Assembly: GCF_028368935.1 (NCBI RefSeq)
Contig: NZ_JAQNDK010000004.1
Span: 1,736,001-1,800,000 of the forward strand
Direction: 5' to 3'
DNA from: Sorangium aterium
GTDB lineage: Bacteria > Myxococcota_A > Polyangia > Polyangiales > Polyangiaceae
Length of the DNA stretch: 64,000 nt
Positions 29,385 to 58,139 of this stretch are shown here, piece by piece. Position numbers and translations under genes: made by a program. Numbering within the stretch: position 1 is the stretch's first letter; every line of letters starts with the position of its first letter. The notes under the pieces are model-generated. The model was not told where the DNA came from. It saw only the letters and a list, made by a program, of their open reading frames with translations, and ran no database searches.

Positions 29385-30812
29385 TCAGGGCCGGAGGCCG
29401 AGCAGCTCGAACGCGCCCAGCAGCGCCGAGCGCGTCCACGACCCCGGGCCGCTCGACGTGCGCCGCGAGGCGGGCAGCTCCCAGAGCCGCTCGAAGTGCG
29501 CAGCGAACGCGGCCACGAAGGCCGGATCGCGGGTCTCGAGGTCGGTCTCGATCCAGGCGCGCGAGAACGAGTTGGGCGTGAAGTTGGCCTGGCCGCCCAC
29601 GAGCATCGGCCGAGCGCCCAGCCGCGCCGCGGTCTTGAGGTGCATCATCGCCCCGCCGCGCGAGTCGTGCACGCGCAGCGCGAAGCGGTCGGGCCACCGC
29701 GCCTCGGCCTCGATCGCGCGGGTGATCCCGTGGTGGTTGACCAGGTTGCGGATGAGCCACGCGGCCGCTGGGGGCAGCGGGAGCGCGTCGATGGAGTCGA
29801 TCAGCACGCGCACCCGGGCGCCGCGCGCCGCCGCGCGCTCGAGCGCATCGAGCACCGGCAGGTCCGAGAGGTACGTCGTCGCGACGAGGAGCTCGTCGCC
29901 CGCCGCCGCGCCGTCGAACAGCTCCGTGAGGCGCGCGCGGATCGCCTCGTGCTCGACGAGCGCGCACGTCTCGTCGCCCGCGACGGTGAGCGCGCCGGGC
30001 GGGGGGAGGGGGACGCGCAGGCCGCCGGCGTACCCCGGCACCGGCGCGAGCGTTGGCGTCGGGGAGGCGACCTCCGTCCCGGGATCGTCGGGCCCGCGCG
30101 CGGCGTGCGAGGCGCGCGCGGCGCCTGCGACGAGCGCGTGGAGCGCGGCGCGGCCCTCGTCGCCGATCGCCTGCGGGAGGGTGAGCGCCTCGTCGATCGC
30201 CGCCATCGCGACGCGCCAGAGCCGGCGGGCCACGGCGCCCGTGAGCCAGAACAGGTTCTCGTGCCAGTCGAACGCCGCGTCGATGAAGTTGTGCGACGTG
30301 ATCGCGCCGGCGCGCCCGCCGTCGATCACCAGGTTCTTCCGGTGGTCCTCGACGTTGTGCAGCACCTGCCAGCGGTTCTGGTGCTCGACCCAGTCCTCGA
30401 TCGCGACGCGCGCGTGGTCGAGGTGGAAGTTCATCCGGGGCAGGAGCCGGCGGCGCCGGTCGAACCGCGCGCCGAACAGGCAGGCGTTCAGCACGAGGAC
30501 GCCCGCGTCCGCGAGGCGCCTCCGCACGAGCGCGCCGCGGCGGCGCGTCAGGGCGGGGTTCGCGGGCGTGTTGCTGTCCAGGATCACCACGACGGTCGCG
30601 TCGGGACGCGCGCGCTTCTTGGCGATCAGCCAGTCGGCGACCGTGTCGGCGTAGGGGAACGCGCCCGGGCGCGGCAGCAGCGTCGTCTGGTCGCCGTTCG
30701 CCGCGAAGAGGTACATCTGCAGGACGACGCTCCGCTCGGCGGCCTCGATGAGGTCGCGGCACGCGGAGAGGATGCCGTGGCTGTCGCCGATGTACGCGAG
30801 CCCGGAGCTCAC
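29385..30812 (-). CDS. Phospholipase D-like protein (one intact, one altered HKD site)
   Basis: 475 residues from the GTG at 30812, overlapping the stop of the diiron gene (GTGA). The first active-site motif is HRKNLVIDGG followed by AITSHNF, matching HxK(x)4D and the downstream Ser/Asn. The second is HLKTAARLG...GGQANFTPNSF, where His and Lys remain but the Asp position is replaced, so the second half may be altered. The architecture resembles cardiolipin synthase/PLD-type phosphatidyltransferases without N-terminal membrane helices. It is the last gene of the seven-gene cluster. It could transfer a phosphatidyl group to a small alcohol or act as a phosphodiesterase. Confidence 0.83.
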   Translation of the reverse strand: MSSGLAYIGDSHGILSACRDLIEAAERSVVLQMYLFAANGDQTTLLPRPGAFPYADTVADWLIAKKRARPDATVVVILDSNTPANPALTRRRGALVRRRLADAGVLVLNACLFGARFDRRRRLLPRMNFHLDHARVAIEDWVEHQNRWQVLHNVEDHRKNLVIDGGRAGAITSHNFIDAAFDWHENLFWLTGAVARRLWRVAMAAIDEALTLPQAIGDEGRAALHALVAGAARASHAARGPDDPGTEVASPTPTLAPVPGYAGGLRVPLPPPGALTVAGDETCALVEHEAIRARLTELFDGAAAGDELLVATTYLSDLPVLDALERAAARGARVRVLIDSIDALPLPPAAAWLIRNLVNHHGITRAIEAEARWPDRFALRVHDSRGGAMMHLKTAARLGARPMLVGGQANFTPNSFSRAWIETDLETRDPAFVAAFAAHFERLWELPASRRTSSGPGSWTRSALLGAFELLGLRP

Positions 30813-31774
30813 GCGGCGTCCGCGCGCAGCGCGCGGCGCAGCGCCCAGCAGAGGGGCCGCGCTCCCGCGAGCCCGCGGCCCTCCAGCTTGCGCGTGAAGC
30901 TCTCGGTGCCCCAGCGATCGGACTGCGTCGGGGCGCGCCCGCCGAGCCGCCGCCGCTGCGACGCGTCGAGGCCCAGCTCGCTCCCGGCCGCGGCCACGAG
31001 GCGGCGCCAGGCGTCGCCGACCACGCCGTCGACGTACACGAGGAAGGGCAGCGCGAGGGCCGTCTGGATCGCGGCGAGCCAGCGCGGACAGCGCTCGTTC
31101 AGGTGCAGGAGCACGCGCTCGTCGATGGCGACGTGCGGCGCCTCCTCGCGCGCGTGCAGGGCCATGATCTCGGCGACGAGCGCCGCGCTCTGGTCGGGCC
31201 GGGCCTCGATCGCCCGCGGCACGAAGAGCGTGATCTCCTCGAAGTACCACGCGAGCAGGAAGAAGGTGCCGGCCGGGGCGAGGCGCAGCGCCGCGTCGTC
31301 GCCGCGGCCCCAGCGCAGGAAGCGCGGCGGCGCCGCGTCGGTCGGGTAGAGATCCGGCCGGAGCCTGTGCAGGAGCCGGCGGAACATCTCCGCGTGCGTG
31401 CGCTCCTCGGCGACGAAGCGGGCGATGACGGGCGCGGACAGGTACGGCGCGCGGTGGGCCGACCGCTCGAGGTACCGGATCACGTAGCCCTCGAAGTGGA
31501 TGAACAGCTCGCACGTGAAGCACGCGAACAGCCGGTTGATCGCGACGCGCTGGCGCTCCGTGAGGCCGAGGCCCGCGACGTCCATGTAGTGCGCCTCAGG
31601 GATCACCAGCGCATCGGCCGGGATCGGGCGCGTCCAGTCGATGCGGTCCCAGCGCCGGCGCACCGCCGCGTGCAGCCGGTCCTCGCGCGCGGCGGCCTCT
31701 CCGTCGTGGAGCGGCGTTCGAGGGCTGCCTTCGTGGCCGGGGAGCGCGGGATCGGCGGAGAGCTGGAGGCTCAC
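30809..31774 (-). CDS. AurF-like nonheme diiron oxygenase
   Basis: 321 residues from the GTG at 31774, overlapping the asparagine synthetase stop (GTGA). Candidate ligands are Glu89 (FTCELF), Glu124 and His127 (AEERTHAE), Glu180 (WYFEEIT), and His207, Glu211, His214 (HAREEAPH). Their spacings (35, 3, 27, 4, 3) are the same as those of the seven ligands of p-aminobenzoate N-oxygenase AurF as I recall them. AurF-type enzymes oxidise amines to hydroxylamines or nitro groups. The overlap with an amidotransferase gene and a second diiron-type gene suggests N-oxidation of a pathway intermediate. The substrate is unknown. Confidence 0.82.
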   Translation of the reverse strand: MSLQLSADPALPGHEGSPRTPLHDGEAAAREDRLHAAVRRRWDRIDWTRPIPADALVIPEAHYMDVAGLGLTERQRVAINRLFACFTCELFIHFEGYVIRYLERSAHRAPYLSAPVIARFVAEERTHAEMFRRLLHRLRPDLYPTDAAPPRFLRWGRGDDAALRLAPAGTFFLLAWYFEEITLFVPRAIEARPDQSAALVAEIMALHAREEAPHVAIDERVLLHLNERCPRWLAAIQTALALPFLVYVDGVVGDAWRRLVAAAGSELGLDASQRRRLGGRAPTQSDRWGTESFTRKLEGRGLAGARPLCWALRRALRADAA

Positions 31775-33777
31775 GAGGGGACCGTCCTCTCGATCGACGC
31801 GACCGCGCGCTCGTCTGCGGCCGCGGGCGCCGGGCCGGCCGCGGGCGCCGGCGGCGACCACGCGGGCAGCTCGCACAGCCCGCCGCCGAGGAACAGGTGG
31901 TGCCACAGCTGCGTGGTGACCACGGCGGTGTAGCTCCCGTCGGCGACGATCCGCCGCGGGGCGAGCGCGGGCAGGATCCGCTGGAAGCGCTGCTCGCGCG
32001 CGACCTTCGCGGGCGAGAAATAGCCCGTCTTTCGCAGCGACTCGGGGCTCACGAGCTGCGCGATCCAGCGAGGCTGGGGCCCGAGCGCGCAGAGCGCGTG
32101 GGCCTTGAACATCCCCTTGGGCGGGTCGGCGACGTCACGCGGGAGCACCCGCCGCGCCACCTCGCGCAGGAGCCACTTCTCCCGCAGCCCGCGGAGCTTG
32201 TACAGGGGCGAGAGGCCGCTGGAGAGCTCGACGAAGGCCTCGTCGAGGAACGGGTAGCGGTGCTCCACGCCCGAGCGCATCGCCGCGCGGTCGCCTTTGC
32301 CCACCAGCAGGTGTCCGGCCAGCATCAGCTTGTACTCCACGTAGAGCGACCGATTCAGCGGATCCCAGCGGCGCATCCGCGCTGGCGCGATGTCGAGCTC
32401 GGAGAACGGATCGTGGCCCGCGACGCGCTCGGCCATCGTATCCGAATAGAACAGCCAGCGCGCGCGGGAGAGCGGCTCGTACAGGTCGAGGAGGCTCGGG
32501 CGAACGTCGCCGAAATGGTCCTGGAACGTGGGCGCGGGTGTGCCGGGCGCTGCGAGCTCGGCCAGCGTTCTTCGGATCGCGCGCGGCAAGGCTGCGTGGA
32601 CGCGGGCGAGGCGCTCCATGGCGCGGTGGGTCTTGTGCCAGACGTAGCCGCCCATCGCCTCGTCCGCGCCCTCGCCGGTGAGCACGACCTTGAACCCCCG
32701 GCGCGCGGCGCGCTCGGCCAGCAGGAGCACGCACCCGTCGGCCGTGTCCATCACGGGGCCCTCTGCGGCCTCCACAACACGCGGGAGGGTCTCGAGGATC
32801 TCCGCAGGCGAGGGCACCAGGGTCTCGAGCCGTGCGCCCAGGCGCGCCGCGCTGCGGGTCGCGCGGCGTCGCTCGTCGGGCCCGGCGCCGTCGAAGCCCA
32901 CGGTGAACGACGCGATGGGCGCGTCGCCGCGGGCCTCCCGGGCGAGGCCGAGCACCAGCGTCGAGTCGAGCCCGCCGCTCAGGTACGTCGCCACCGGGCC
33001 GTCGGAGACGAGGCGACGCTGCACGGCGTCGCGCAGGCAGGCGCGCGTCTCCTCGATCAGCGCGTCGAGCGAGGCGACGCGCCGCTCCTCGCCCTGGGCC
33101 GGGAAATCCAGGTCCCAGTAGCGCCGCTGCTCCACCGCGCCGCCCTGCGCGCGGAGGTAGTGCCCGGGCCAGATCGAGCGCACGCCGCGGAAGCACGTCC
33201 GCTGCGTGCCCGCGGCGAACAGCGAGAAGACGTGGTCGATCCCCGCCGGATCGGCCTCGGGGCGCACGAGCCCGCTCGCCAGGATCGCCTTGATCTCCGA
33301 GGCCCAGAGGAGCCAGCCGTCCGCCACCGCGTAGTGGAGCGGGCAGATCCCGATCCGGTCGCGGCCGAGCAGCAGCGTGCGCTCCTCGCGATCCCAGAGC
33401 GCCACGGCGAACTGCCCGCGCGCGCGGGAGAAGGCGCCCTCGCCCGCGTCGAGGTAGAGCCCGGGCCACAGCTCGGTGTCGCACCGCGTGCGCTGCGCGT
33501 GCCCGCGCGCGGCGAGCTCGCGGCGCAGCTCGGCGTGGTTGAACAGCTCGCCGTTGTACGAGACCCACACGCGACCGCTCGCGTCGGCCATCGGCTGGCG
33601 GCCGCCCGCGACGTCGACGATGGCGAGGCGCCGCGTGGCCATGGCGATCCCTGGCGCTGAGAAGGAGGCGCCGTCGTCCGGGCCGCGGTGCCGCACGCTC
33701 GCCGCCATGCGGTCGAGGCGCGCCGGATCGAACGTGCGTCGCCCGGCGAGATCCAGCGCTCCGACGATGCCGCACAT
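31771..33777 (-). CDS. asnB: Glutamine-hydrolysing asparagine synthetase-like amidotransferase
   Basis: 668 residues. The glutaminase domain begins with catalytic Cys2 (MCGIVGAL) and has RHRGPDDG, VSYNGELFNH and CDTELW. The synthetase half has the ATP pyrophosphatase loop YLSGGLDSTLVLG (about 263-275) and the later VVLTGEGADEAMGGY. It uses glutamine nitrogen and ATP to amidate an Asp-like carboxylate; many natural-product clusters reuse this fold for other amide bonds. It is somewhat longer than typical AsnB, with a Pro/Ala-rich C-terminus. It is embedded in a cluster: 9 bp after the diiron-fusion gene and overlapping the AurF-like gene. A dedicated biosynthetic role is therefore likelier than housekeeping asparagine synthesis. 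Confidence 0.93.
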   Translation of the reverse strand: MCGIVGALDLAGRRTFDPARLDRMAASVRHRGPDDGASFSAPGIAMATRRLAIVDVAGGRQPMADASGRVWVSYNGELFNHAELRRELAARGHAQRTRCDTELWPGLYLDAGEGAFSRARGQFAVALWDREERTLLLGRDRIGICPLHYAVADGWLLWASEIKAILASGLVRPEADPAGIDHVFSLFAAGTQRTCFRGVRSIWPGHYLRAQGGAVEQRRYWDLDFPAQGEERRVASLDALIEETRACLRDAVQRRLVSDGPVATYLSGGLDSTLVLGLAREARGDAPIASFTVGFDGAGPDERRRATRSAARLGARLETLVPSPAEILETLPRVVEAAEGPVMDTADGCVLLLAERAARRGFKVVLTGEGADEAMGGYVWHKTHRAMERLARVHAALPRAIRRTLAELAAPGTPAPTFQDHFGDVRPSLLDLYEPLSRARWLFYSDTMAERVAGHDPFSELDIAPARMRRWDPLNRSLYVEYKLMLAGHLLVGKGDRAAMRSGVEHRYPFLDEAFVELSSGLSPLYKLRGLREKWLLREVARRVLPRDVADPPKGMFKAHALCALGPQPRWIAQLVSPESLRKTGYFSPAKVAREQRFQRILPALAPRRIVADGSYTAVVTTQLWHHLFLGGGLCELPAWSPPAPAAGPAPAAADERAVASIERTVPS

Positions 33778-33786
33778 GATCGATCG

Positions 33787-36069
33787 CTACCTCCCCGTGT
33801 CCCCGAGCAGATGTCGCCGGAGCCAGCGCCAGCCGAGCCGTGGGCCGAGGCGCACCGCGACCGCGCGCACGAGCGGCCGGCTCGCGCGCGCGTACGCGGC
33901 GTACCCGCGCCAGATCCGCAGCGTTGCGCGCTCGATCGCGAGCGCGTCGCCGGGCGCCGCGCAGGCGTCCATGAACCGGGTGATGGCCTCGATCGACCAC
34001 GCGGTGTGGCCCGACGCGGCGTTGTCGATGGTGTTGTGCAGGTCGAAGAAGTACGGGTCGATCCGGTGGCGCCGCAGGATCGCGGCGGCCACGGCGTACC
34101 CGCGGCCGATGCCGGCCATCTCGATGGCCAGGTTGAGGCCGAGCAGCTCGGGCCAGAGCTCCATGGACCCTTGCGCGAACGCGAGCCAGAGCACGGGCAT
34201 CGAGAACGCCTGCGGGAGGAGGTCGGGCCGTTCGATGAACGCGCGCGCGTCGCACGGCGGCAGCGTCACGCCTTGCTCCGCGAGCGCCCTGCGCAGCACG
34301 TTGCCGTGGTGCTGGGCGGGCACGCCCGCACCGAGCTCGTCGCGGTAGATCCGGAGCAGGAGCGCCGCGACCGTCGTGCGGAACGCGCCGGGGGCCGTCG
34401 TGCCCTGGAGCCACGCGCCGTCGATCACGGCCGCCGGCGCGAGCTGGGTGAGCAGCCAGACGGCCTCGTCGCGCGTGAGCTCTCGCGCGATGCCCGCGTC
34501 GTCGGTGGGCTGCGTGTGGCCGCGCGCGGGGCGTGGGGCCGCATGCGGTCCCGCCGTGGACTGCGCGTGGGCGTGCCCTTCCTCGAAGATCTGCTCGCGC
34601 AGCCGCGCGTCGACCCAGCGCGAGAGCCCCGCGGCGGACCAGGGCCAGCGCCCATCCGCGGCGAGCCGGGCGGGGGACACCTCGCCGTGCGCCTCTCGCA
34701 GCACCGCCTCGACGTGCGCCTGCGCGAGCTCGCCCGCGTCGCGGTCCACGTCCCCGGGCCCGCGGGCGCAGAGCAGCCGGTGGTACAGCTCCGGCAGGGG
34801 GAGCCCTGCGCGTACCTCCGCGCGAGGGGTGGATCCTCGACGATTCCCGTCGATCGAGGCCCCGTCGTGGTCGTGATCGACGCGCGGCGAGCCGGCGCGC
34901 TCGTCCCCGCCGCGCGATGCGCGGACGGGGGCCGGAGGCTCCGGCGCCTCGATCAGCGCGCGGATCCAGGCGCGCATCACGTCGACCTCGGCGTCGGTGA
35001 ACACGCCGAACATCGGGCCGCCGAACTGCACGGAGCGGGTGACGAGCGGGCTCTCGTCGGGCCTCCCCGGCACGATCCACGGCGAGCGCGCGAGGCGCAG
35101 GAGGATGCCGCGCGCGTCGAGCCGCGCCGGATCGAGCGCGCCGTCCAGCGCCTGTCCGTCGAGCCGGACGCGGCCGTGAAATCCGAACGCGTGGCGCGCC
35201 TTCGCCTCGACGAGCGCCAGCATCGCCTCCCACGCGGACGGCGCCGCGGCGGGCCGGAGCGACGCGAGCCACGCGCGCCGCGCGGCCCAGAGCGACCACG
35301 CGCCGCGCCACACGCGCGGCCAGTCCGGCGCCCCGCCAGCGGCGTGCGCCTCGAGACACCGTCGCGCGAGATCGCGGGCCCGGCGGGCCGTCTCCGCGCC
35401 CTCTGCGTGCTCGGCGAAATACAGGCCGTCGCAGCGCGCGCGCGACGCGGCCCGGCGCACCGCGGCGGGCGGGCCCAGCACCGTGGCCGCCGCGTGGTGG
35501 CCCAGCGCCTCGGGCAGCCTCGCGGCCCCGAGCTGCGCAATGCGGAGCCCCGGGATCGCGAGGGCGAAGTCCGCGTCGGCGAGGCAGACCGAGCGCTCGA
35601 ATGCGGGGCTCCCGAGATCGGGCAGCGCGAGCCCCGCGGCGGCCAGCGCGGCGCCGTACAGGGCGCCGTGGTGCCGCGCCGGGTCGCCCTCGCCGCACTC
35701 CAGACAGAACGCGTCGAGGCAGGCCGCGCCGAGCGCGCTGTCCGCGTGGCGCACGCGCACCGCCGCGGCGAGCCAGCACCCGTCGAGCAGCGCGGTCGGC
35801 GCGTAGCCGAGCAGGACCCGCGCCGGGCCTTCGCCCTCGTCGCCGGGCGCGCCGCATCGCTCGTCCTCGTCGCGGAGCGCGGTCAGGGCCGCAAAGAACG
35901 CCTCGATGCCGTCGGGGGCCGCGGCCTCGAGCGCGGGCTCGCCCGCGAGATCCTCCGGGGCCGGCTCGCCGGCCCGCAGCCTGCGGTAGATCGCGCGCGG
36001 CGACGCGTCCGAGGCGCGCGACCGAGGGCTCGCCGCGCGGTCCGATGCCGGGGTGGGAAGGGCGTTCAT
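33787..36069 (-). CDS. Tandem heme-oxygenase-like diiron (HDO) domain protein
   Basis: 760 residues. The C-terminal half (about 540-700) looks like the iron-containing redox/heme-oxygenase-like superfamily: AAVIDGAWLQG, RDELGAGVPAQHHG (Glu578, His587/588), LAIEMAGIG (Glu650) and FFDLHNTIDNAASGH (His678, Asp682, His688) are candidate ligands. The N-terminal half (about 85-240) repeats the same order (TALLDGCWLAAA, LECGEGDPARHHG, LYFAEHAEGAETA). It keeps the first Glu and the His pair but lacks the later Glu and the Asp/His, so it may be structural. An HD/Asp-His-rich linker (RVDHDHDGAS) joins them. It is probably an O2-using oxidase acting with the AurF-like enzyme. No SD is obvious before the ATG at 36069. 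Confidence 0.75.
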   Translation of the reverse strand: MNALPTPASDRAASPRSRASDASPRAIYRRLRAGEPAPEDLAGEPALEAAAPDGIEAFFAALTALRDEDERCGAPGDEGEGPARVLLGYAPTALLDGCWLAAAVRVRHADSALGAACLDAFCLECGEGDPARHHGALYGAALAAAGLALPDLGSPAFERSVCLADADFALAIPGLRIAQLGAARLPEALGHHAAATVLGPPAAVRRAASRARCDGLYFAEHAEGAETARRARDLARRCLEAHAAGGAPDWPRVWRGAWSLWAARRAWLASLRPAAAPSAWEAMLALVEAKARHAFGFHGRVRLDGQALDGALDPARLDARGILLRLARSPWIVPGRPDESPLVTRSVQFGGPMFGVFTDAEVDVMRAWIRALIEAPEPPAPVRASRGGDERAGSPRVDHDHDGASIDGNRRGSTPRAEVRAGLPLPELYHRLLCARGPGDVDRDAGELAQAHVEAVLREAHGEVSPARLAADGRWPWSAAGLSRWVDARLREQIFEEGHAHAQSTAGPHAAPRPARGHTQPTDDAGIARELTRDEAVWLLTQLAPAAVIDGAWLQGTTAPGAFRTTVAALLLRIYRDELGAGVPAQHHGNVLRRALAEQGVTLPPCDARAFIERPDLLPQAFSMPVLWLAFAQGSMELWPELLGLNLAIEMAGIGRGYAVAAAILRRHRIDPYFFDLHNTIDNAASGHTAWSIEAITRFMDACAAPGDALAIERATLRIWRGYAAYARASRPLVRAVAVRLGPRLGWRWLRRHLLGDTGR

Positions 36070-36158
36070 ACGACCGGACGACGCAGGCTGCCGGCGCCTA
36101 CCCCCATCCGGACGACGTTATGCGTGCGCGCGACCGGCGTCCACACAGCGCACGGATC

Positions 36159-36779
36159 TCACGCGAGCCGCTGCAGGAGCCCCGCGAGCCCGAGCGCCAC
36201 CAGCGTCCACCCGAGGCCGCGCACCAGGCGCCCGTGCCATGCGCCGAGCCGCTCGCGGTAGCGCGCCAGCAAGCGCCCGAGCGTCGCGAACCAGCTCACC
36301 ACGCCCATGGCGGCGCCCACCGCGAGCGCTGCCGCGTGGGGCGGCGCGACCGCGGGCGCGAGGGCAGGGTACGCGCGGAGCACGGCGCACGACGCGATCC
36401 ACGACGCCAGGAACGACGGATTGAAGGCGACGAGGAGGAACCCGGTCAGGAGCGCCGATGTCGCGCGCCCGGACGAGGGCGCCTCCGAGGCGCGCCGAGG
36501 CGCGAGCGCCAGGGCGAGGCCCATCGCCACGACGAGCGCCGCGCCGCCCGCTCGCAGGGCGCGATCGATCGCGGGGTGCGCCTCGAGGACCCACCCGAGC
36601 CCGCGCGCCGCGGCGAGCGCCCAGAGCCCCTCGGCAAAGGCGCCTCCGATGGCGAGCATCAAGACACGCCGGGGCTGCCCCGCGAGCGCCGCGGCCACCA
36701 GCAAGACGGCCAGCGGCCCCGCCGCCGGGATCGATCCGAGATAACCGAGCAGGAACCCCACGACGAGCGCGAGCGCCAT
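36159..36779 (-). CDS. LysE/RhtB-type exporter
   Basis: 206 residues with six hydrophobic helices, the normal size for LysE-superfamily exporters of amino acids and small amine compounds. N-terminal signature-like segment VVGFLLGYLGSIPAAGPLAV, conserved loop LLVAFNPSFLASWIAS. It lies in the same-strand cluster, 89 bp upstream of the diiron-fusion gene. It may export the amino-acid-derived product of that cluster, an inference from context. Confidence 0.8.
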   Translation of the reverse strand: MALALVVGFLLGYLGSIPAAGPLAVLLVAAALAGQPRRVLMLAIGGAFAEGLWALAAARGLGWVLEAHPAIDRALRAGGAALVVAMGLALALAPRRASEAPSSGRATSALLTGFLLVAFNPSFLASWIASCAVLRAYPALAPAVAPPHAAALAVGAAMGVVSWFATLGRLLARYRERLGAWHGRLVRGLGWTLVALGLAGLLQRLA

Positions 36780-36782
36780 GGT

Positions 36783-37949
36783 TCATCCGAAGCGAGGTGT
36801 GCGGCGGTGAGCTGCAAAGGATCGCCCGCGGCGCGCCGCGGGCGATGGGCGCGGGGGCGAGACGCGGTCGTCAGGCGGTTTCAACCCGGTCGTCGCCTTA
36901 ACGCAGCGCCAGCGTGACGCGAGCCCGAGGCTCACCCGCAGATCGTGGACCGCCTGCACATCCAGGGCGGGCGGCAGCAGCCGGTACTCGCCCTCGAGCA
37001 CCGCGGCGATGGGTTGATCGTCGATCGCGGCCAGGATCCTCTCGGCGTGCGCGGCCGAGCGCACAAGGACACGCCAGCGCCCTTCGCTCGTCCAGTGCGG
37101 GACCACGTCGCCTCGACCATCGAAGACCGTCAGCCCGTCGCCGCTCTGGAGGCGCAGCCGCAGCGAGCCTGCGGTCATGGGTGCGATCCGGTGGACCACC
37201 CTCGGCTCACCGAGCGTGCGGCGCGCGGGCGCGGCGTGGGGAGAGGGGGACTCGGCGTAGTAAGCGTCGACATCGTAACGGACCCCGAGCCCGATCTCGA
37301 AGCTGCGGCCCGCCTCGCCCGTGCGCCACGGATCGAGGATCGCCGTGGCGCGCGCCACGCCGAGCCGGACCATCGGCGCCGGCGCTCCGTCGCCCCGGCG
37401 CTGCGGGATCGAGGGGATGCTCACCCGGCCCACCTCGGCTTCCACGCCGATGTCGAAGGGGAAGGGGACCGCGATGGGCGGCGACATCGGCAAGACCACC
37501 CGCGGCGATTCGTCGTGCCGCAGGAACGATGCGCCGTACAGCGCCGCGTCGAGCGCGGGCACGCCGTCGAGCGCGGGCACGCCGTCGAGCGCCTGCCCCG
37601 TCGGAGACACCCGGCCGGCGAGGACGCGGTGATCCGACTGCCAGATCACGCGGCCCGGCCCGGAGCCCGTGACGCTGCGCGCGCGGTAGGACAGGCCCGC
37701 GTCGATCTCGGGCTCGATCTCGATCGCCCCGCCCGCGCCCCGGTGCAGCGCGGACGCGACGCCGAGCCACACCCGGCTCGCCGGGTCGAAGCGCACGCGG
37801 AAGCGCCGGCCTTCCTCGGAAACAGCGGTATCGCCTCCGCCGGCGCGCTCGCTCTCCTCGCGCGCAGGCTCGGCGCGGCCGGCGCGCGGGGAGAGCGCCG
37901 CGGCCGCCGCCATGACGAGCAGCGCGGCGAAGCGGCGCCGAGCCGTCAC
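36783..37949 (-). CDS. Exported protein, paralogue of the upstream gene product
   Basis: 388 residues from the GTG at 37949, overlapping the upstream stop (GTGA). Signal peptide (FAALLVMAAAAALSPRAGRA). The mature part aligns by eye with the upstream product: RRFRVRFDPASRVWLGVAS versus KAFQVKFDLLNRLYLGASW, and ILAAIDDQPIAAVL versus ILLAINDQPISLRL. Alternating hydrophobic strands suggest a barrel or beta-sandwich at the outer membrane. The last ~40 residues are Pro/Arg-rich and unlike the rest. In another frame the segment ends VTLALR-stop at 36898, so a frameshift near 36920 is possible. A tandem 18-bp repeat near 37553-37590 encodes LDGVPA twice. Confidence 0.7.
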   Translation of the reverse strand: MTARRRFAALLVMAAAAALSPRAGRAEPAREESERAGGGDTAVSEEGRRFRVRFDPASRVWLGVASALHRGAGGAIEIEPEIDAGLSYRARSVTGSGPGRVIWQSDHRVLAGRVSPTGQALDGVPALDGVPALDAALYGASFLRHDESPRVVLPMSPPIAVPFPFDIGVEAEVGRVSIPSIPQRRGDGAPAPMVRLGVARATAILDPWRTGEAGRSFEIGLGVRYDVDAYYAESPSPHAAPARRTLGEPRVVHRIAPMTAGSLRLRLQSGDGLTVFDGRGDVVPHWTSEGRWRVLVRSAAHAERILAAIDDQPIAAVLEGEYRLLPPALDVQAVHDLRVSLGLASRWRCVKATTGLKPPDDRVSPPRPSPAARRGRSFAAHRRTPRFG

Positions 37950-39205
37950 GGGTCCTCGAAGACGGGCATCGGTTCGAACACCCGTGGGGGAGCCCAGAAC
38001 GACACCCGCAGGCCCGCGGCGGCCTTGACCTCCACGTCGCGAACGTCGCTGTCGAGGTCGTTGCGGCTCACCCCCATCGCGGCGAGCCGCAGCGAGATCG
38101 GCTGATCGTTGATCGCGAGGAGGATGCCCTCGTAGGCGATCGTGGCCTCGATGCGGTTCATCGCCGCTCCCCTCCCGCTCCCGGCCGCGATGCTCGGGCG
38201 CCGGTAGGTGAACGCGGTCGAGAGCGCGTGGAGGCCGCCCTCGCCGAGGCTGAAGCGCGATTTGATGGCGCCCGTCGGGCCAACGTAAAGAGCGCCGGTG
38301 TCCAGGCCGTCGTCGATCTCCGATCGGTGCTCCCAGTACTCCCCGAGATCGGCGCCCGCCTCGAACCGGACATGGCTGTACATGTCGTTCGACTGCCACG
38401 GATTCCACGCGAGATGGACCTCGCCGAACTCCACGTCGAGCGTGTCCCGGCGCGCGGGAGGGCGGTCGTTCACCGACACCACCCGGAAGCCCCAGCCCAT
38501 CCGCGGCGAGATCGGGTAAAGCCGCGGCTTACCGACGAAGGTGCTGAGCCAGTGGGCCGGCCGCCGGTGCAGGTGCTGGTAATCGTAGCTGAGGAGCACC
38601 CCCGAGAGCTCGAGATCGTCGAACGTCGCCGATCCCTCGAGGATGCGCAGGTCATGGCGGGCGCGGGAGCGCGTCGAGAGCACGCTCACGTGGATGCCGG
38701 CCTCGGCCCTCCCGCGGCCCAGGGGGAAGCTCGCGGGCACGGGGAGCCCGTTGTTGCCATGGAACGTGGGCAGCCAGGACGCGCCCAGGTAAAGCCGGTT
38801 CAGGAGATCGAACTTGACCTGAAATGCCTTGCCGTCGGCCGAGCGTGCGTAGCCCGGCGGCGCCTCGGCGATCGCGGCGACGAGGCGGGCGCCGCGCGCG
38901 GTCAGGGCCCGGTAGGCCGAGGCATCTTCAACCACGTTGCACGGCTGCACCTTGTCGAGCGCGCCGCCGTCGTAGGCCAGGTGATCGGGCGCGATGAGGC
39001 AGCGCTCGCCCTCCGGGCCTGGCTCGCATTGAACGCGCACCGCGCCGCCGTCCGGCGACCGGATGCAGCGAACCGGCTTGTCCCAGGAGAGCTGCGGCGG
39101 CTCGTCGGGGCGAGCGGGCGCGGACCAGAGCATCGCCGCCGATAAGGGGGCGAGCAACGCGTGAATCCGAGGCAGACGTCGTCTCAAAGCACCCTCACGA
39201 GGCAA
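37946..39205 (-). CDS. Exported protein, first of a paralogous tandem pair
   Basis: 419 residues. The likely start is TTG at 39205 with GGAG five bases upstream. Signal-like segment IHALLAPLSAAMLWSAPARP, then a Cys-containing N-terminal region (VRCIRSPDGGAVRVQCEPG, four cysteines), then a strand-rich domain shared with the next gene (FDLLNRLYLGASWLP, ILLAINDQPISLRL, AAAGLRVSFW). Function is unknown; an outer-membrane location is suggested. It is the first gene of the cluster that continues through LysE, the diiron enzymes and PLD. A sigma-54-like sequence lies ~80 bp upstream. Confidence 0.72.
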   Translation of the reverse strand: MPREGALRRRLPRIHALLAPLSAAMLWSAPARPDEPPQLSWDKPVRCIRSPDGGAVRVQCEPGPEGERCLIAPDHLAYDGGALDKVQPCNVVEDASAYRALTARGARLVAAIAEAPPGYARSADGKAFQVKFDLLNRLYLGASWLPTFHGNNGLPVPASFPLGRGRAEAGIHVSVLSTRSRARHDLRILEGSATFDDLELSGVLLSYDYQHLHRRPAHWLSTFVGKPRLYPISPRMGWGFRVVSVNDRPPARRDTLDVEFGEVHLAWNPWQSNDMYSHVRFEAGADLGEYWEHRSEIDDGLDTGALYVGPTGAIKSRFSLGEGGLHALSTAFTYRRPSIAAGSGRGAAMNRIEATIAYEGILLAINDQPISLRLAAMGVSRNDLDSDVRDVEVKAAAGLRVSFWAPPRVFEPMPVFEDP

Positions 39206-39535: not shown

Positions 39536-42097
39536 CTAGCCGGCCTCCGCCCGCGAGATCCACCGGAGCGCCTCGGGCAGGACGTCGGCGACGGCGGCGA
39601 GCGCGTCCTCCCCGCCGATGCGCGCGATGAGGGGCGCGAGCTGTTCCACGCCGCCCCAGCGGCTCAGGGTCGCGACGAGCGTGACCTGCTCGGCTGCGTT
39701 CCCGAGGCTCACGGAGAACAGCTTTGCTGCGTCCGCAAGTGACATCCAGGGTGCGCAGCGCATCACGCTCTCCAGCCCGTCGGTATCTCGATCGTCGTGG
39801 TAGGCAGCGACGGCGCGCGCGGCGAGCGCGGGGCGCGACGGCTCGGGGGCGGCGCGACAGAGCGCCGCGAGGGCCATGATGCGCGCTGCCTCGGAGCCAC
39901 CTCCGCCTGCCCGTTCGGCGATTTCGACGGCAGCATCGAGGCCGAGCACCTGGATGGCTTCGGCTGGGTGTTCGCAGACGAGCTTCGCGGCGACCCATGC
40001 GGGGTCGAGCGCAGCCACCGCCTTGCGCGCGGCTTGCACGAGGGAGCGGCCGCCCTCGGTCGCCGCGGCGCGGAGCAGCGCGCGAGCGCCGTGGATGCCG
40101 CCGCCACAGAGCTCTCGGATGACGTCGAGCGCGCGTCCCGGCGCACCGAGCTCGGCGAACCGCACGGCCAACGCGGCGCCCATTCCCGTCGTCGGATCGT
40201 CAAAGAGCTTCGAGAGCTCAACCAGCCCTAGGAATGGAACAACAGCCGTGGTGCAGGTCTCGTCGTCAAGCCGCTCCGCGTCTGCATCAAAGTCAACGAA
40301 GAACGCATCGAACACCACCCCGACGGCTCTGGCCCGCTCGTCATCGGGCAGCTTCGACAAGAGCGGTGCCAGAGCGTTCGCGCGTGACCTCGGTTCGAGG
40401 GACATCGCTGCGCGAAAGAGGGCGAGCGCCTGCCCCTCCGGCGCGGCGAGCTGCGCGAGCGCACGCCCCGGCTTCGCGCTCACCAGCGCGCGCTCGATGG
40501 CTTGTTGGACCAGCGCTACCGCTTCCGACGGGGGCAGGAAGCTGGCTGCGGTCAGCCACGCGGGCAAGTAGATGTCGGGCCCTTTCTCCGCACGCCATGT
40601 GGCGGAGACCGCCCAGCGCGCGCACATCGCGGCCTCGCTCCCGGATGCAGCACGCGCCGCGGTGAGCAATGCGAGCGCATCTTCCCACCCATCGCCGCGC
40701 CACGCGGCGCCGGTCCGACGTACGACGTCGAGCGCGCGCGCCTCGATGTGTGCGCGCAGCGATGGTGAGGCGTGCGCCGCGAGCGCGAAGAGCGCCACGG
40801 CGAGCGCCCGCTCCGTGTCGTTCCACGCCTCCTTGCCGGGCTCGTCCGCCTCAGGGGGCCACGCGTGGTGCAGCGTCGCGAGCGCGCCCTGCGCCATCGC
40901 GAGCCTCACGAAGCTCGATAGCGCTTCGGACGGGATTCCCATGGCGTCCGCGCCGTCGAGCGGCGCCGTCAGCGTGCGTCGCACGCGCCCCAGCTCCATC
41001 CGGCGCGCGGCGACATCCTCGCGGGAGCGCGGCCAGGCCCACCGCGGGTCGCATAGCCGGAGGAGATCGGCGTGCGGCGCTCCCGACGCGACGAGGTGAT
41101 CGCCGGCATAGCGGCGGAGGTAGACCAGCGCGCGAGATTGGGCGTTGTCGACGCCCTCCCAGGTGCGAACGAGGGCCCGGGCAGCCTCAGCGAACCGTCG
41201 CTCGGCGAGCGCCGCGTGCTCCTGGTTCGCGGCTGCCCAGGCGGCGCGCAAGGCTTCGTGACGAAAGCGAATCCGGTGCCCCTCTTCATGCCATTCGATC
41301 ACCGAATCCAGGGCGTCGCGGCGCGCATCGAGCCACCCGGTCACCTCGGCCACCTGCGCATCGAGGAGCAGAGCCAGCGCGGAGATGTCGAGCGGCGCGA
41401 ACGCGCACGCGAGGAACGCCATGAGCGTCTCCAACCGCGCCGCACCACGCTCGCGAAGCGAGGTCGCGATCGCTTCTACATGGGCGCGTGGGCCTGGGCC
41501 GTCGACCGCCGCCCAGGCGAGCTTGTCGCGGAGAGCTGGATCGATGTCATCGATACGGAACCCGTCGACCGGAATGTACGTCACGCGCTCGGTGCGGAAA
41601 TTGAGGCGCTCTGCCCACCGCTCGGCGACATCGCGCGTGCCGGAGACCGCCACCAGCACACGCGCGGCGGGCCCTGGCTCGTCCAGCACAGAACGGCGCG
41701 GGTTCTCCGGCCAGTCCACGCACGCGTCAGGCGCGATGAGACCGAGCAGGAGCTGCGGCTGCCCGTCGTCGCCGTCCCAGTTCATGACTCGGTTCACGAG
41801 GCTCGTGCGAACGCCGAAGGCATGTTCGCTGAACCCTGTGCCTTCGGGCCACGGACCTGCTGAGAGCCTCGCGAGCGCCTCTTCCTCGAAGGCAGCGCCG
41901 AACACGCGTCCAGCGTGGACGACGAGCTTCAGCGTTCCAGGAGCGGTGATCGAACAGAAAAAGCGTTCGAGAACGGTGCTCTTCCCCGCGCCGGGCGGAC
42001 CGTGGACGATGCATGCCGCCGGGCGGCCCGCATCATACCAGGCCCGCAGCCCTTCGAGCGCTCTGGACTGATCTTTGCCAAAGAACCGTCCTGCCAT
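39536..42097 (-). CDS. STAND-like P-loop ATPase with long alpha-solenoid
   Basis: 853 residues from the ATG at 42097, which has AGGAG six bases upstream (an ATG 11 codons earlier is weaker). The N-terminus is an ATPase: residues 1-20 RFFGKDQSRALEGLRAWY, Walker A CIVHGPPGAGKST (~30-41), and a plausible sensor segment RVLVAVSGTRDVAERW. From ~residue 250 to the end the protein is a continuous series of Ala-rich helices of TPR/HEAT-like type. The order resembles STAND NTPases, which act as switches in signalling and in anti-phage defence, but no effector domain is fused. Divergent from a hypothetical gene with a tandem array between. Confidence 0.75.
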   Translation of the reverse strand: MAGRFFGKDQSRALEGLRAWYDAGRPAACIVHGPPGAGKSTVLERFFCSITAPGTLKLVVHAGRVFGAAFEEEALARLSAGPWPEGTGFSEHAFGVRTSLVNRVMNWDGDDGQPQLLLGLIAPDACVDWPENPRRSVLDEPGPAARVLVAVSGTRDVAERWAERLNFRTERVTYIPVDGFRIDDIDPALRDKLAWAAVDGPGPRAHVEAIATSLRERGAARLETLMAFLACAFAPLDISALALLLDAQVAEVTGWLDARRDALDSVIEWHEEGHRIRFRHEALRAAWAAANQEHAALAERRFAEAARALVRTWEGVDNAQSRALVYLRRYAGDHLVASGAPHADLLRLCDPRWAWPRSREDVAARRMELGRVRRTLTAPLDGADAMGIPSEALSSFVRLAMAQGALATLHHAWPPEADEPGKEAWNDTERALAVALFALAAHASPSLRAHIEARALDVVRRTGAAWRGDGWEDALALLTAARAASGSEAAMCARWAVSATWRAEKGPDIYLPAWLTAASFLPPSEAVALVQQAIERALVSAKPGRALAQLAAPEGQALALFRAAMSLEPRSRANALAPLLSKLPDDERARAVGVVFDAFFVDFDADAERLDDETCTTAVVPFLGLVELSKLFDDPTTGMGAALAVRFAELGAPGRALDVIRELCGGGIHGARALLRAAATEGGRSLVQAARKAVAALDPAWVAAKLVCEHPAEAIQVLGLDAAVEIAERAGGGGSEAARIMALAALCRAAPEPSRPALAARAVAAYHDDRDTDGLESVMRCAPWMSLADAAKLFSVSLGNAAEQVTLVATLSRWGGVEQLAPLIARIGGEDALAAVADVLPEALRWISRAEAG

Positions 42098-42169
42098 CGG
42101 GCTCTCCTGAACATGAGAAAGACTCATCATCTTGGCTTGTACGGGCCGAACTTGCCGCGTTTGTCTCCC

Positions 42170-57995: not shown

Positions 57996-58068
57996 GCCCC
58001 CGTAGCTCAGTGGATAGAGCAGCGGTTTCCTAAACCGAAGGTCGCAAGTTCAATTCTTGCCGGGGGTG
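57996..58068 (+). tRNA. tRNA-Arg (anticodon CCU)
   Basis: Cloverleaf: acceptor GCCCCCG/CGGGGGT (one G-T pair), D arm GCTC...GAGC, anticodon loop TTCCTAA with anticodon CCT, T arm GCAAG/CTTGC with TTCAATT, discriminator G. 73 nt; CCA not encoded. The 3' end borders a decayed integrase, typical for tRNA-targeting elements. Confidence 0.97.
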
Positions 58069-58139
58069 CCGAAGGATTTCGGGCACTTACGAGAGCCAGC
58101 CCAGATGTCATGGGCTGATCGATCGGCCCATACGCCGGG

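Follow-up and report, generated by a model that had tools for sequence, protein, structure and literature searches.

A rare core of four genes, encoding a tandem haem-oxygenase-like diiron oxygenase (HDO), an AsnB-like amidotransferase, an AurF-family oxygenase and a phospholipase D (PLD)-like protein, was found to keep its order between Sorangium aterium and three genomes of another family of the same class. We tentatively read it as part of an accessory biosynthetic operon whose product would be a small N-oxygenated molecule, with a hydroxamate or a related N-hydroxy amide as the likeliest candidate. The window, that is the whole stretch of DNA analysed, covers 64,000 nucleotides of contig NZ_JAQNDK010000004.1 (positions 1,736,001 to 1,800,000) and comes from a 13.5-Mb genome with about 75% GC in this region. 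Seven minus-strand genes, numbered g1 to g7 along that strand, were confirmed at window positions 29385-39205, and the core consists of the last four of them, g4 to g7 (Table 1).

Conservation of the four-gene core

A preliminary description of this DNA had presented the seven genes as a same-strand series with 4-bp overlaps or short gaps, and the gene calls bore this out. Overlaps of 4 bp were seen at g1-g2, g5-g6 and g6-g7, gaps of 3, 89 and 9 bp separate g2 from g3, g3 from g4 and g4 from g5, and the longest frames of the locus have a high third-position GC. The enzyme identities given there (LysE-like exporter, tandem HDO, asparagine synthetase, AurF-type oxygenase and PLD-like protein) also agreed with the Pfam matches.

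The description had further suggested a search for the same gene order in other myxobacterial genomes, and the result showed that the order tandem HDO, AsnB, AurF-like, PLD-like is kept in G406, G455 and G581, three genomes of 58-59% GC. Identities to the window core were 41-48% for the HDO, 61-67% for AsnB, 50-54% for AurF and 51-57% for PLD; in G581 a contig end cuts the PLD gene, the remainder of which is found on a different contig. G105, a member of the window's own family, carries AsnB-AurF-PLD on a contig that begins inside AsnB, and no HDO match was found in this assembly (84% complete). The AurF gene adjoins AsnB in all five genomes showing an AsnB of the g5 clade, namely the window's genome and these four. 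A core order shared with other genomes at 41-67% identity is beyond chance, and from its divergence the gene set appears to be old.

The core gene set is also rare and accessory. Full-length g4-type HDO homologues were found in four of 317 genomes of the class, the same four that hold the whole core, with partial or distant HDO matches in five more. None of the five other genomes searched from the window's genus had an AurF or PLD match. A contig profile search with the AurF alignment returned three loci, those of G406, G455 and G581, and the same kind of search with the HDO alone returned nothing. The AurF-like and PLD-like proteins were without match in the plasmid collection, and the PHROGs search gave nothing for g4, g6 and g7.

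The firmest link of the core is that between AurF and PLD. The AurF profile matched 10 of the 317 class genomes, eight of them strongly (E < 1e-59), and the PLD profile matched 38, only seven of them at E < 1e-60. All seven strong PLD genomes fall within the eight strong AurF genomes and the two genes are adjacent, with PLD directly after AurF in 7/8; the eighth genome, G543, has its AurF gene truncated by a contig end. The pair count does not include the weak AurF matches in G370 and G464 (best E 3e-9 and 1e-8), around which the fetched DNA showed no PLD match, or the weak PLD matches of 31 genomes (E 1e-6 to 1e-3), which were taken as general PLD superfamily. A PLD-like gene thus placed behind an AurF-type gene was seen in three families of the class.

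Table 1 Genes of the locus, with coordinates in the window
Gene	Predicted product	Length (aa)	Coordinates	Strand	Family match or remark
g1	Exported protein, family not matched	419 (from TTG)	37946..39205	-	Start uncertain, other starts possible
g2	Exported protein, possible distant g1 paralogue	388	36783..37949	-	
g3	LysE-family exporter	206	36159..36779	-	LysE PF01810
g4	Tandem HDO	760	33787..36069	-	Haem_oxygenas_2 PF14518, two stretches
g5	AsnB-like class-II glutamine amidotransferase	668	31771..33777	-	Asn_synthase and GATase_7
g6	AurF-family diiron oxygenase	321	30809..31774	-	AurF PF11583
g7	PLD-superfamily protein	475	29385..30812	-	PLDc_2 PF13091; HxK in both halves

Predicted enzymes of the core

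The g6 protein matched PF11583 at 43.4 bits (cut-off 29.6), and a match to this family was obtained for all seven AurF homologues at E up to 0.01, the G406 homologue scoring 28.1 bits, slightly below the cut-off. The positions of the family were aligned on the pattern E, ExxH, E, HxxxExxH, which we take to be the metal-ligand pattern of AurF, and E89, E124, H127, E179 together with E180, H207, E211 and H214 were invariant in 7/7. On these residues g6 is predicted to be an AurF-family diiron oxygenase. Sequence searches of solved structures with the AurF-like profile, and likewise with the HDO profile, gave no usable match.

The two halves of g4 are related to each other (profile comparison: probability 98%, E 2e-13). 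Twelve HDO proteins were compared, comprising the four operon copies, distant copies from G162, G167 and G406, and five of the 28 records that the g4 search of the plasmid collection returned (A. vitis, S. lavendulae, A. baumannii, Photobacterium and S. meliloti). In the C-terminal domain D550, E578, H588, E650, H678, D682 and H688 were invariant in 12/12, and each of these seven positions may bind metal. In the N-terminal domain, the window and G581 copies retain D96, E124 and H134, and the other two operon copies are without E124 and H134; across the twelve proteins E124 is kept in two and H134 in two (one row is gapped there). No acid stands at the E650 position in the N-terminal domain of any of the four operon copies, and in that of the window copy nothing corresponds to E650, D682 or H688. 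The preliminary description had counted two diiron-type oxygenases in the locus, which fits the invariant ligands of g6 and holds only in part for g4, predicted to have one intact and one incomplete site, with a full candidate ligand set in the C-terminal domain only.

According to a review (PMC13108848; here and below, papers are cited from the parts of their texts available to us), the usual HDO ligand set is three histidines and three carboxylates (3H/3C), and the N-oxygenases SznF, AurF and CmlI have 3H/4C, with which the three histidines and four carboxylates of the g4 C-terminal domain are compatible. DtpC, an HDO-like protein of A. baumannii, requires E143, H153 and H232 (PMC13232832), and the spacing of ten between E143 and H153 equals that between E578 and H588 of g4. 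A re-look at the Foldseek matches of the g4 model (best E 0.02), covering mainly residues 14-276, gave Z-scores of 21.4 for RohS, 20.4 for HrmI, 18.7 for SznF, 16.6 for CADD, 15.5 for FlcD, 14.2 for UndA and 13.4 for BesC, so the modelled N-terminal domain appears nearest to N-oxygenase HDOs, with a fold like that of RohS, HrmI and SznF. The model of the C-terminal domain, which holds the invariant residues, has a predicted local distance difference test score (pLDDT) mostly below 50. Unlike RohS, HrmI and SznF, g4 joins two HDO domains in one chain, one with an incomplete site, through a linker (residues 298-372) in which H298 is found in 12/12 and E361 in 11/12 relatives. This linker presumably resembles cytochrome-c-like tails without CxxCH.

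Tandem-HDO genes related to g4 were met on plasmids of Agrobacterium vitis, Sinorhizobium and Streptomyces. Their annotated neighbours are a SidA-type N-oxygenase, a carbamoyltransferase, ketoacyl synthase III (KAS III), an acyl-CoA dehydrogenase and adenylation enzymes, and not AsnB, AurF or PLD. The records H2, H3 and H4 carry no annotation and yielded no names for their genes. Among the loci of the tandem-HDO relatives, that of A. vitis holds the SidA-type N-oxygenase, that of G162 a lysine/ornithine N-oxygenase, and that of G167 a TauD-like protein and a non-ribosomal peptide synthetase (NRPS). On the A. vitis plasmid (L037, 7254-11728) the tandem-HDO gene is directly followed by a LysE-family gene and an annotated carbamoyltransferase gene, and L040 (8119-12781, unannotated) has a similar arrangement judging by its gene starts; such HDO-LysE-carbamoyltransferase loci are possibly a separate type of natural-product locus. 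A second, distant tandem-HDO gene (L014, 8846-10738) lies on the same contig as the G406 core.

In g5, the Cys2 nucleophile and the SGGLDS motif (S267-S272) were invariant in 3/3 aligned sequences. An AsnB profile was built from three operon copies including the window's, and it scored the complete operon copies at 1177-1410 bits and the partial G105 copy at 565; the profile was built without the G581 copy (1177). In the window's genome g5 reached 1325 bits and the next copy 337, which agrees with the expectation that this AsnB would be distinct from other copies in the genome, and the lead is partly by construction because three operon copies built the profile. An AsnB search of the plasmid collection gave 495 records, with about 40% identity for the best among the matches listed, and no AurF gene was annotated in the two AsnB neighbourhoods examined among 30 listed.

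In the g7 family, all seven sequences carry an intact first HxK(x)4D motif, and the second keeps HxK without the D in the six of seven that reach that region. The lipid-head-group transfer named in the preliminary description is conceivable for such a protein.

Proposed function and alternatives

AurF acting together with AsnB is an established way of making hydroxamates, so the locus is best read as an operon dedicated to N-oxygenation, whose core enzymes probably assemble a small molecule carrying an oxidised nitrogen. Such pairs form the hydroxamates of trichostatin and benzohydroxamic acid (PMC11160463, PMC13418202, PMC5719088) and have been proposed for actinonin (ActI/ActJ) and matlystatin (MatA/MatC) (PMC5719088). 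The general idea of the preliminary description, amidation or hydroxylamine transfer combined with N-oxidation, therefore has precedents in TsnB7/TsnB9, with ActI/ActJ and MatA/MatC as proposals. In this scheme g6 would hydroxylate the amide nitrogen of glutamine, like TsnB7, or of an amide supplied by AsnB, and g5 would use ATP to activate a carboxylate for coupling with hydroxylamine or ammonia. The C-terminal HDO domain of g4 would perform a second O2-dependent oxidation, with the incomplete N-terminal domain being structural, and g7 would act on the AurF product by making, exchanging or breaking a phosphodiester bond, perhaps one to a lipid. In the window strain a LysE-type exporter gene stands just upstream of the core. 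The TsnB6/TsnB7/TsnB9 (trichostatin A) and SaAmOx-AS/SaAmOx/SaHAT (benzohydroxamic acid) modules, as far as described in the cited texts, likewise place an AurF-family oxygenase near an AsnB-like enzyme; compared with them the core adds the tandem HDO and the PLD-like gene and no further gene. The actinonin and matlystatin clusters also have an AurF-like N-oxygenase and an AsnB-like enzyme; the warhead genes described for them are absent from the core, which adds HDO and PLD.

Several results weigh against a dedicated hydroxamate operon. The core holds no gene for biosynthesis of an acid scaffold. The DNA fetched for G541 and G542 holds the AurF-PLD couplet and no match to HDO or AsnB (in G542 it reaches only 0.8 kb past PLD), so the AurF step may be independent of the core AsnB. 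The predicted model of g6 is weak (pLDDT 63): it aligned to AurF (2jcd) over 233 residues with Z 10.8 and a root-mean-square deviation of 4.6, an aldehyde deformylating oxygenase scored higher (Z 12.2), and, with AurF trailing the best ferritin-like matches by no more than 1.4, the model fits ferritin-like diiron proteins generally and does not single out AurF. One AurF homologue also weakly matches PF10118 (Metal_hydrol). As for g5, its best solved relative was the trichostatin hydroxyamidotransferase 7ylz (181.7 bits), and one paralogue elsewhere in the genome scored 201.4 bits against the same structure, so the match is not specific and g5 has no special affinity to TsnB9; the assignment of g5 as a hydroxyamidotransferase by this match was dropped on this single-paralogue control. 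Moreover, g5 scored 394 bits with the ordinary asparagine synthase model TIGR01536, above its cut-off of 267.

The last two results favour another, somewhat improbable chemistry that needs no hydroxylamine transfer, in which AsnB makes a plain amide with glutamine-derived ammonia for the AurF-like enzyme to hydroxylate. Direct oxidation of the amide nitrogen is the option that the authors considered likelier for matlystatin and actinonin, whose clusters, in the text available, have AurF and AsnB without a TsnB6 homologue (PMC5719088). This model uses the same genes as hydroxylamine transfer, so sequence alone does not separate the two, and the occurrence of AurF-PLD without a nearby AsnB match speaks against it as well.

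An unlikely reading, which would amount to a new kind of biosynthetic logic, takes PLD as a standing partner of the AurF-type oxygenase, the N-hydroxylated product being moved onto or released from a phosphodiester. This would yield a hydroxamate or N-hydroxy compound linked to a lipid or nucleotide, and the tandem HDO and AsnB would contribute further steps. Less likely still is a lipid-modifying unit in which AurF and PLD N-oxidise a phospholipid head group, or attach an N-hydroxylated alcohol or amine to phosphatidyl, with HDO and AsnB supplying the head group. That AurF-PLD is the most widely kept linkage, with a 4-bp overlap in the window, G105, G541 and G542, and that PLD retains HxK in both halves are points for this unit. 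Against it, the usual aspartate is absent from the second PLD motif, no lipid-synthesis gene is linked, and AurF and PLD of the f14 genomes are 9 to 25 bp apart without overlap. Functions of the PLD fold are also diverse, and g7 gave only weak matches, to a mitochondrial cardiolipin hydrolase (E 0.07) and to DISARM DrmC (25.9 bits versus a cut-off of 133).

An N-N or N-oxide route of the mgo, pvf or ham type, leading to diazeniumdiolates or pyrazine N-oxides by action of the HDO-like and AurF-like enzymes on an amino acid, is very improbable. The mgo operon, required for mangotoxin, does pair the haem-oxygenase-like MgoB with the AurF-like MgoC (PMC3298696), PvfB is a diiron N-oxygenase (PMC10194917), and HamA has been solved as a haem-oxygenase-like enzyme. 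However, mgo and pvf, as far as described in the cited texts, carry an NRPS, and none was detected by Pfam among the seven operon genes; the core differs from mgo and pvf/ham in this and in having AsnB and PLD, and mangotoxin was still produced by an mgoB mutant (PMC3298696). Formation of hydroxylamine for its own sake, as by Alcaligenes DnfA/B/C, and not of a natural product, can hardly be credited: DnfA is of the AurF family, preparations of DnfAB are reported to hydroxylate glutamine, and DnfC to hydrolyse the hydroxamate, but DnfC is a class-I amidotransferase (PF00117) whereas g5 is class II (GATase_7) with a synthase domain, and the available text names no HDO or PLD for the dnf cluster (PMC11160463).

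Upstream genes, surroundings and meaning of the core

No Pfam or NCBIfam family was matched by g1 or g2. The preliminary description had called them two paralogous exported proteins; the pair is present, and its paralogy is hinted at by a BLASTP match of E 0.002 across 24 residues and a profile comparison of probability 27% (E 7e-4), which make g1 and g2 at best possible distant paralogues. Homologues of g1 at 55-60% identity were found in six other genomes (115 searched), and g2 follows g1 in all five relatives fetched, which are five of these six. In none of the five fetched stretches (12 to 19.5 kb) was a homologue of LysE, HDO, AsnB, AurF or PLD matched, which marks the g1-g2 pair as an independent module, lying upstream and outside the conserved core. 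A LysE homologue was likewise not matched beside the core in G406, G455, G581 and G105, and the LysE gene is only loosely tied to it. A single functional unit made up of all seven genes is therefore not supported.

Beyond the locus, window positions 39536-42130 encode an 864-aa protein resembling P-loop nucleoside triphosphatases, matched in four of six relatives searched, several of them with multiple copies. Of the genes considered as genus-conserved flanks for a possible insertion of the operon, P0011 is multi-copy in relatives and P0009 has no close copy there. Between 58001 and 60000 the G+C drops to 0.60, just downstream of a tRNA-Arg gene (57996-58070), and this low-G+C stretch is a possible integration site. 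Upstream of the G406 core (L012, 12522-18091) lie genes for a TonB-dependent receptor, a single protein combining fatty-acid hydroxylase and imelysin domains, and a DUF4856 protein, which together look like metal uptake.

In the open-licence literature no paper was found that joins a phospholipase D with such oxygenase and amidotransferase genes. The partnership of PLD with the AurF-type oxygenase is thus the new element of this locus, the hydroxamate pairing of AurF and AsnB being already known. Hydroxamates bind metals and serve as a functional group in drugs, and AurF plus AsnB pairs are known to supply them; the added tandem HDO and the PLD-like gene placed after the AurF-type gene suggest a chemical step of which the open-licence literature searched gave no example. 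The core offers four genes and a defined set of genomes in which this step can be compared.

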